A DNA stretch of 64,000 bases from Solimonas variicoloris DSM 15731 (GTDB lineage Bacteria; Pseudomonadota; Gammaproteobacteria; Nevskiales; Nevskiaceae). The stretch spans positions 372,001 through 436,000 of the forward strand of contig NZ_KB907925.1 in the NCBI RefSeq assembly GCF_000382285.1. The letters run 5' to 3'. Positions 7,116 through 9,733 of the stretch are shown in pieces. Below the pieces are notes generated by a model. The model had not been told where the DNA came from. It worked only from the letters and a program-made list of their open reading frames with translations, and made no database searches. The stretch's first letter is position 1. Each line of letters starts with the position of its first letter. Position numbers and translations under genes: made by a program.

Positions 7116-7119
<4 letters not shown>
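6361..7119 (+). CDS. TetR/AcrR-family transcriptional regulator
   Basis: A 252-residue protein with an N-terminal TetR helix-turn-helix: RIADILVAARDVFCEKGYEQ, then TAVAEIATRIGVVEGTVYKYF and KRELLLKVLEHW. The longer helical C-terminal domain should bind an effector, plausibly an acyl-CoA given the neighbours. It overlaps atuA upstream (ATGA) and the biotin carboxylase gene downstream (ATGA at 7116), so it is translated within the operon it presumably controls. The palindrome at 3554-3570 is a candidate binding site. Confidence 0.9.
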
Positions 7120-8650
<1,531 letters not shown>

Positions 8651-8651
<1 letters not shown>

Positions 8652-9232
8652 TGCGCCGAGCGCGTGCCACGCCTGCTACGCAGGCGCCCTCTCTCCTAGC
8701 CTCTCTCCCGTATGAAACCCGGGACCTAGTCCCACAAGCGGGAGAGAGGGGTGAAGCAACCATTCCCTCTCCCGCAACGCGGGAGAGGGGCAGGGAGAGG
8801 GCCGCGCCGCAGGCGCGGAAGGCAAAGCGCGTTGCGCTCGGCAGGGCCAAAGCACTGCGTCGCGACCAGACCGACGCTGAGCTGCGCCTCTGGTATCGCC
8901 TGCGCGCTGGCCGCTTCCTGGGTTTGAAGTTCAAGCGTCAGCATCCGATCGGTCCCTACATCGCCGACTTCGTTTGTCTGGAGCATGGCCTGATCGTTGA
9001 AGCCGATGGCGGTCAGCACGGCGACACAGGACACGACGCGACGCGCGACGCGTTCTTGGCGAGTCGTGGTTTCCGTGTGCTGCGCTTCTGGAACGACGAC
9101 GTTCTGCAGAACACCGACGCGGTACTCGAAAGCATTCGCCTCGCCGCCGGCGAGGCGCCCTCTTCCCCAACCCCTCTCCCGTATGCAACCCGGGGCCTCG
9201 TCCCGCAGGCGGGAGAGGGGAACAGGAGCTAA
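8651..9232 (+). CDS. DUF559 (Vsr-like) endonuclease-domain protein
   Basis: A 193-residue product. Residues about 63-165 carry the DUF559 pattern: AKALRRDQTDAELRLWYRLR, LGLKFKRQHPIGPYIADFVC, LIVEADGGQH, then GFRVLRFWNDDVL. The D106, E117 and D119 arrangement fits a PD-(D/E)XK/Vsr-like fold. The first 60 and last 20 residues are translations of the flanking repeats, giving LPYxTRxLVPQAGE at both ends. The only ATG in frame is the one overlapping the biotin carboxylase TGA, so expression would rely on coupling; the true core may start nearer residue 60 from a non-ATG codon. Biological function of DUF559 proteins is not established. Confidence 0.8.
8683..8750 (+). repeat. Left direct repeat with internal palindrome
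   Basis: Begins GGCGCCCTCT and contains a perfect 11-bp stem CCTCTCTCCCG / CGGGAGAGAGG (8699-8710 region to about 8748). Aligns without gaps over most of its length to 9154-9220 with about a dozen substitutions. A change in the stem (T-A here, C-G in the right copy) is compensated in both arms, which argues that the folded structure matters. Confidence 0.85.
8765..8789. repeat. Short palindrome CCCTCTCCCGC-AAC-GCGGGAGAGGG
   Basis: A perfect 11-bp inverted repeat with a three-base loop, using the same core as the flanking repeats. Palindromes of this core recur between genes in Xanthomonadales-like genomes (recalled, not searched). Here it is read as protein within the N-terminus of the DUF559 product. 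A weaker hairpin, CCGCGCC-GCA-GGCGCGG, follows at 8802-8818. Confidence 0.85.
9154..9220 (+). repeat. Right direct repeat with internal palindrome
   Basis: Partner of 8683-8750, starting GGCGCCCTCT and holding a perfect 11-bp stem CCCCTCTCCCG / CGGGAGAGGGG. The spacing to the left copy is 471 bases (157 codons), so both are translated in the same frame of the DUF559 gene. Just after it comes AACAGGAGCT, which supplies the ribosome binding site for the biotin-carrier gene. Confidence 0.85.
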
Positions 9233-9235
9233 CGC

Positions 9236-9733
9236 ATGCATCACGCCTTCAAGCTCGGCGACGCCGAGCACAACGTCGCGCTGTCGCGCTCGGCGCAGGC
9301 TTACCGCCTGCATATCGGTGATGAGGTGCTCGACGTCGATCTCGCGGTCGGCGCCGACGGCCGCGCCTGGCTGACGCTGGGCGAGCGCCATCTCGAAGTG
9401 GTCGTCGCGACACGCGGCGACGACGTGTTCGTGCACGTCGACGGCGAGGCCTACCAGCTGCGCTACCGGCATCCGCTTGACCGTCTTGCGGCGCAGGCCG
9501 GCGGCAGTGCCGACGATCACATCCGCGCGCCGATGCCGGGCAGCATCGTTCTGGTCTCGGTGGCGGCCGGCGACGCGGTGACCAAGGGCCAGACGCTGCT
9601 GGTCATGGAGAGCATGAAGATGGAGACGACCATCGCCGCGCCGCGCGACGGCGTGATCGCAACGGTGACGTACGAGAAGGGACAGACCTTCGATCGCGAC
9701 GCGCTGCTGCTGAGTCTGGAAGCGCAGACGTAG
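9236..9733 (+). CDS. BT/biotin carboxyl carrier part of the split alpha subunit
   Basis: A 165-residue protein. Residues 1-90 resemble the BT linker domain of alpha subunits (beta-rich; VALSRSAQAYRLHIGDEVLDVDL). Residues 93-165 are a biotinyl domain with the acceptor motif MESMKME (Lys128) and IRAPMPGSIVLV. It starts at an ATG 8-10 bases after AGGAG, a site contributed by the inserted repeat. The frame differs from the biotin carboxylase frame, so it cannot be read as a simple continuation. Together the two parts total 676 residues, the usual size of the intact subunit. The TAG stop lies inside the following inverted repeat. Confidence 0.88.
   Translation: MHHAFKLGDAEHNVALSRSAQAYRLHIGDEVLDVDLAVGADGRAWLTLGERHLEVVVATRGDDVFVHVDGEAYQLRYRHPLDRLAAQAGGSADDHIRAPMPGSIVLVSVAAGDAVTKGQTLLVMESMKMETTIAAPRDGVIATVTYEKGQTFDRDALLLSLEAQT

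Follow-up and report, generated by a model that had tools for sequence, protein, structure and literature searches.

A DUF559 nuclease gene bounded by REP-like palindromes at an old joint between two carboxylase genes, with relatives lying in frame inside conserved proteins

Judged by the same locus in related genomes, the DUF559 gene between the biotin carboxylase and biotin-carrier genes of Solimonas variicoloris DSM 15731 entered a gene boundary that already existed, and did not split the carboxylase here. We consider it probable that this locus is one member of a widespread nuclease-plus-palindrome family, in which DUF559 is predicted to recognise its own palindromes and to spread both the repeats and the unit.

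The window, i.e. the whole 64,000-nucleotide stretch of DNA that was analysed, comes from a genome close to Solimonas flava, with a DUF559 protein 97% identical. According to Pfam and the open reading frames (ORFs), the gene order is AtuA, a TetR gene, biotin carboxylase (BC), the DUF559 frame with its palindromes, the BT/carrier gene and a carboxyltransferase. The features are as follows.

7116-8651, + strand: the 511-aa BC half of an acyl-CoA carboxylase (alpha subunit) (ORF; Pfam, scanned from 7125)
8651-9232, + strand: DUF559 open frame, 193 aa, both ends being translated repeat sequence (ORF, Pfam)
8670-8686, no strand: outward-lying small GC hairpin at the edge of the left repeat (sequence)
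8684-8749, no strand: REP-like unit on the left, made up of a tag and an expanded-loop palindrome (repeat alignment, folding)
8765-8808, no strand: second left REP-like unit, inverted, palindrome CCCTCTCCCGCAACGCGGGAGAGGG plus tag (hairpin listing, folding)
8802-8818, no strand: gene-facing small GC hairpin at the left repeats (sequence, folding)
8843-9139, + strand: DUF559 (Vsr-like nuclease) domain (Pfam, conservation, fold)
9138-9156, no strand: gene-facing small GC hairpin at the right repeat (sequence, folding)
9154-9220, no strand: REP-like unit on the right, made up of a tag and an expanded-loop palindrome (repeat alignment, pattern search, folding)
9224-9228, + strand: AGGAG, candidate ribosome-binding site for the BT/carrier gene (sequence)
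9236-9733, + strand: BT/biotin-carrier half, 165 aa (ORF, Pfam)

In its local particulars, this layout bears out the sequence-only reading. Thus, the BC gene ends in AIGAWRN with its TGA at 8649-8651, the DUF559 ATG at 8651 shares one base of that stop, the BT/carrier gene follows in another frame at 9236 behind the AGGAG, and the two halves total 676 residues when counted from the ATG at 7116. Pfam finds Biotin_carb_N, CPSase_L_D2 and Biotin_carb_C in the upstream half, DUF559 (PF04480, E 3.1e-39) in the middle, and, in the downstream half, Biotin_lipoyl together with BT_MCC_alpha, the latter a match under the cut-off that covers 41-116 of its 118 positions. Further upstream, the TetR stop and the BC start overlap as ATGA (7116-7119), a style of coupling that resembles the TGATG joint.

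The palindromic repeats noted around DUF559 are likewise real. Two direct copies of 68 bp (8682-8749 and 9153-9220) are 84% identical, a further palindrome lies at 8765-8808, and both clusters fold better than shuffled sequence (left, z -6.0; right, z -4.7; 0/200 shuffles as good in each case). The left cluster folds as an outer stem enclosing two hairpins, that is, as an inverted pair folding together. The 44-bp core of the expanded-loop palindrome occurs only twice in the genome at up to 3 mismatches, once on each side of DUF559, and the genome has one DUF559 match and 7 strict palindromes of the same kind; the genome-wide presence of the flanking repeats in this Solimonas genome is weak. 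ATGC stands on both sides of the insertion, and these four bases, which lie at the start codon, are a weak sign of target duplication; no firm duplication was found.

The same reading had taken a further step and proposed that the element itself divided the carboxylase gene. We searched 58 family genomes, the window's own included, found the carrier half in 49, and compared one locus per genome. The BC and carrier genes are separate at the same place in 48 of these 49 loci, the BC gene of the relatives usually ending in W-[RSTL]-N-stop. Three of the 48 (L157-L159) are distant, with carboxylases 61-62% identical, and may be paralogues. DUF559 is lacking at 42 of the 48 split loci: 28 of the 49 have a gap of at most 38 bp, including eight in which stop and start overlap by one base, and 14 have longer gaps, four of them holding the CCTCTCCC motif. 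Only six of the 49 carry DUF559 with palindromes, namely the window, its sister G038, and G030, G032, G043 and G004 (G and L numbers are our handles for genomes and loci). Close relatives thus show the split with neither DUF559 nor repeats, as in the eight overlapping loci and in G041, a member of the same genus with 3 bp between the two genes. An undivided subunit does occur among the relatives, in the form of L155 (G013), the sole fused BC-BCCP gene of the 49, in which a short linker joins BC to BCCP at the split point. This gene, and the agreement between the summed length of the halves and the undivided subunit, are what would speak for division of an intact alpha-subunit gene at a domain junction; set against the older, DUF559-free split, we regard that scenario as highly improbable. 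The TGATG at the start of the DUF559 frame looks like the old carrier-gene start reused. In addition, the BC/BCCP gaps of L006, L016 and L021 hold repeat-like units of other kinds, L006 for instance having TTCGACAGGCTCAGGGCGAACGG and L021 TAGGAGCGGACCTTGTCCGCGA, so that the joint tolerates several kinds of repeat.

How often the element reached this joint was addressed with a DUF559 tree of 137 rows and 112 columns, in which many forks are open. Five of the six joint copies group together (93/82, a branch that is not starred, i.e. not firm), and G030 is placed elsewhere. DUF559 identity among the joint genomes goes roughly in step with carrier-protein identity, G043 fitting less well and G030 being the exception: compared with the window, its BCCP is 77% identical but its DUF559 only 52%. 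The G043 copy has a stop within the compared span and looks decayed. We read these data as one old arrival followed by losses, with a second arrival in G030, the only joint copy that looks independent; the starred branches would also allow a single origin. The BC/BCCP site may therefore represent one old insertion with losses, and this weighs against movement.

Turning to other DUF559 genes, the expectation that they too would be bounded by such repeats was amply realised across Pseudomonadota. Among relatives in named genomes (the best 80 of 278 confirmed, many of them mutually related; 79 after one duplicate was dropped), the motif CCTCTCCC/GGGAGAGG lies within 400 bp on both sides of 54/79 loci and on at least one side of 76/79. 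In control windows from the same loci the corresponding counts are 0/491 on both sides and 25/491 on either. Perfect hairpins of at least 9 bp flank both sides of 41/79 DUF559 loci as opposed to 4/491 controls. Within the family, the motif is present on both sides of 33 of 57 DUF559 loci, on either side of 41 and on neither side of 16, a set for which only 3 control windows fitted. Ten motif-lacking loci (from the first 115) were read by eye, and nearly all have other palindromes, e.g. CCCTCCCCCGC or CCTTCTCCC, on at least one side; in the 58 family loci listed, L208, L214 and L216 have no hairpin of at least 8 bp on either side. The tag tends to point inward (27/36 upstream, 24/33 downstream), a trend drawn from the minority of the 137 loci in which the strict tag was found.

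Repeat type and number also go with the nuclease clade. Several hairpin types flank the family DUF559 genes, and two were searched across the 58 genomes. Palindromes of the CCTCTCCTCC type are confined to two of them, G041 (38) and G045 (5), both with a DUF559 gene flanked by that type; G040, the third member of this DUF559 clade, has neither flanking hairpins nor such repeats. The CCTCCCCCGC palindromes number 59, 37, 23, 10 and 3 in G008, G051, G052, G023 and G011, whose DUF559 genes form one clade (99/76) and are flanked by CCCTCCCCCG or CCTTCCCCCG palindromes. In the other 53 genomes the highest counts are 10 and 7, and 45 have none (p 7e-7, with types chosen after seeing the flanks and kinship ignored). 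As for strict palindromes, the median is 28 where the DUF559 match reaches about 1e-14 or better (35 genomes) and 1 in the other 23 (p 1.4e-5, kinship ignored). Palindromes do persist in genomes lacking DUF559 (50 in G039, 41 in G056, 37 in G022), which weighs against coupling, and two DUF559 genomes, G040 and G054, have no strict palindrome. Genome-wide, then, the repeat variant follows the DUF559 variant in these sequence counts, for repeat types defined post hoc and with kinship ignored. Movement of the repeats by DUF559 would best explain the matched types and counts.

A quite unlikely alternative is that DUF559 is a resident Vsr-like repair nuclease, beside which repeats moved by another enzyme, e.g. 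a Y1 transposase, merely collect. A Caulobacter DUF559 protein, described in passages of PMC12907096 as Vsr-like and as having a functional link with a cytosine methyltransferase, would fit this, as would the Y1-transposase matches present in 42 of the 58 family genomes. Yet this leaves unaccounted for the agreement between repeat variant and DUF559 variant, and the joint occurrence of DUF559 and repeats inside MetH and LeuS described below. Nor are the Y1 genes themselves bounded in this way: of 30 Y1 loci among the matches listed, none has palindromes on both sides and two have them on either side (0/27 and 1/27 for full-length ones). The Y1 transposase as partner of these repeats was judged unlikely on the count of 0/30.

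The more general idea in the sequence-only reading, that of a repeat-nuclease element inserting at domain junctions while the host gene stays expressible, is supported at sites other than the carboxylase, for DUF559 with palindromes of the same kind lies in frame inside MetH, LeuS and HrpA of related genera. By Pfam, it sits between the B12-binding and activation domains of MetH in G045, G004, G003 and G051, between HA2_N and the OB fold of HrpA in G005 and G007, and in LeuS of G017, in which the editing-domain match breaks off at position 142 of 185, immediately ahead of the insert. MetH is single-copy in 54 genomes, four of which have DUF559 inside it; all 31 MetH junctions compared (4 with DUF559, 27 without) have lengths divisible by three, and the inserts of G045, G003/G004 and G051 enter one and the same linker at slightly different points. 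LeuS occurs once in 52 genomes and twice in G022, and one of these 53 genomes has DUF559 inside it. Among 22 LeuS loops compared, one holds DUF559 with repeats (G017) and two, L271 (G023) and L279 (G051), hold repeats alone at the same editing loop, all in frame. Congeners have empty sites in LeuS for G017 and in MetH for G045 and G051. Furthermore, the DUF559 in LeuS of G017 falls on one supported branch (100/96) with those in MetH of G003 and G004, which argues that the unit changed its host gene. Pfam finds in the interrupted MetH, LeuS and HrpA the host domains, DUF559 and a related nuclease model only, with no intein domain. Given the open frames and, for MetH and LeuS, the single copies, we infer that the interrupted proteins still work. 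These other loci give good support to a repeat-nuclease element that would settle in joints and linkers and keep the host frame open.

Several further arrangements were seen. DUF559 shares one open frame with a TadA-like deaminase at five loci, a separate start being possible. Eleven sites of the three-base-loop repeats were taken from G003/G004 and eight frames scanned with Pfam; L217, L225 and L229 lie in protein genes (Pfam and reading). In L229 (G003), a palindrome pair lacking DUF559 interrupts a NuoG-like protein in frame, its position being between two domains of molybdopterin type. For G005, two of the four stretches had masked bases and were left out. The MetH linker of L240 (G054) has a different in-frame insert of about 33 residues that lacks the CCTCTCCC palindrome, and the HrpA frame of L046 (G005) contains, besides DUF559, about 150 consecutive residues that look like translated repeats.

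The enzyme itself appears to be maintained. Numbered on the DUF559 core (8819-9151), the window has the conserved residues E21, D50, E61, D63, Q66 and H67; these and R14 are invariant in 48 aligned rows, and each is found in at least 131 of the 137-row set. Of the seven copies embedded in MetH, LeuS or HrpA, six keep all of these residues; the exception, the MetH-embedded copy of G003, has R at H67 and looks decayed. With dN/dS of about 0.1-0.26 in eight DUF559 pairs, and 0.19 for the MetH-embedded pair, the substitution pattern shows the putative nuclease residues to be under purifying selection. For the predicted DUF559 structure (mean pLDDT 86.6), Foldseek matched 3HRL (E 2.7e-9) and then the catalytic domain of I-Bth0305I (E 2e-4), with Vsr as a weak further match (E 0.07). 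Comparison with an anti-phage library gave only a weak DpdF match. The window's DUF559 domain is found in 3/50,697 phage records, and the LeuS-embedded one in 41/72,556 plasmid records.

The fold match to a homing endonuclease, which is the nearest solved structure after 3HRL, brings up a second alternative: each DUF559 clade would cut the uninterrupted allele of its own site and be copied in by repair, the palindromes being linkers or a by-product. That would agree with the loyalty of DUF559 clades to their sites across genera and classes, with the many sites beside or inside conserved metabolic genes, and with the alternation of filled and empty sites among congeners. Indeed, protein neighbours on both flanks are common to 338 pairs drawn from the 137 DUF559 loci, a few large clusters contributing many of them, and the neighbours of representatives include aconitase with a PEP-mutase family protein, NAD synthase, 2-oxoacid dehydrogenase acyltransferase, and urease alpha with a CobW/UreG family protein. 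The shared flanks also weigh against a mobile unit, as they show that the DUF559 gene rarely moves and is mostly inherited in place, and the repeats vary more than its placement does. Many RAYT genes are likewise mostly inherited in place. Since most copies at the BC site diverge as in vertical descent, which also gives site loyalty, and since homing explains neither the clade-matched palindrome populations nor the repeat-only insertions at the same LeuS loop, and since Pfam sees no intein domain in the interrupted proteins, we hold it to be unlikely.

Having weighed these alternatives, we return to movement of the repeats by DUF559. The proposed unit is a DUF559 gene bounded by REP-like palindromes, often in inverted pairs (REPIN-like), and in the window it sits in the short joint between two already separate carboxylase genes. 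DUF559, with its Vsr/I-Bth0305I kind of fold, would recognise its own palindromes and drive a rare spread of the repeats, spread of the whole unit being rarer still. Surviving insertions would be those in operon joints or flexible linkers, where a stop-free, frame-preserving repeat length could leave the host protein working. We infer the action on palindromes, the mobilisation by DUF559 and the mode of insertion from the patterns above.

The unit may be compared with several known systems. First, it resembles REP/REPIN sequences and their RAYTs (Y1 HUH enzymes) in its short GC-rich palindromes, in the inverted pairs that fold together, in copies found genome-wide, and in repeats that flank a low-copy nuclease gene. 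The window's left repeats also share the REPIN fold of two hairpins inside an outer stem. It differs in that the enzyme is DUF559, with a Vsr/I-Bth0305I-like fold instead of HUH, in that the tag is of a GCCCTC type and not of the GTAG/GGAG type by reading of the window units and some others, and in that DUF559 units also lie inside proteins. Second, I-Bth0305I, Vsr and 3HRL share with DUF559 the fold and the residence in or beside conserved genes, whereas here no intein domain is seen and the gene is bounded by palindromes. Third, the CGTC-tagged REPs are, in passages of PMC3733652, palindromic, mostly proteobacterial and not associated with transposase genes; the DUF559 units resemble them and differ in their GCCCTC-type tag. 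Fourth, Rickettsia palindromic elements insert in frame in unrelated protein genes, with no mobilising enzyme named in section 4.2 of PMC10969869. The likeness extends to MetH, LeuS and HrpA with DUF559 and to LeuS and the NuoG-like protein with repeats only; the difference from what that section describes is that some insertions here carry the nuclease itself.

A literature search that covered neither subscription papers nor preprints found no link between DUF559 and palindromic repeats. The related elements in frame inside core enzymes point to an undescribed kind of mobile DNA. Some bacterial palindromic repeat classes, such as the CGTC repeats as portrayed in those passages of PMC3733652, have no known mobilising enzyme, for which a DUF559 that travels with its own repeat variant is a testable candidate. 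Moreover, an entire nuclease domain in frame inside MetH or LeuS would be a natural domain insertion by a mobile element with no evident splicing. More tentatively, and with confidence falling a little short of even, we suggest that DUF559 nucleases could be the missing enzymatic partners of a large proteobacterial class of palindromic repeats. They would make up a third REP system, next to the RAYT one, based on a Vsr/homing-endonuclease fold; its autonomous and its repeat-only forms would enter essential proteins in frame at linkers and rewire domain junctions and operon joints.
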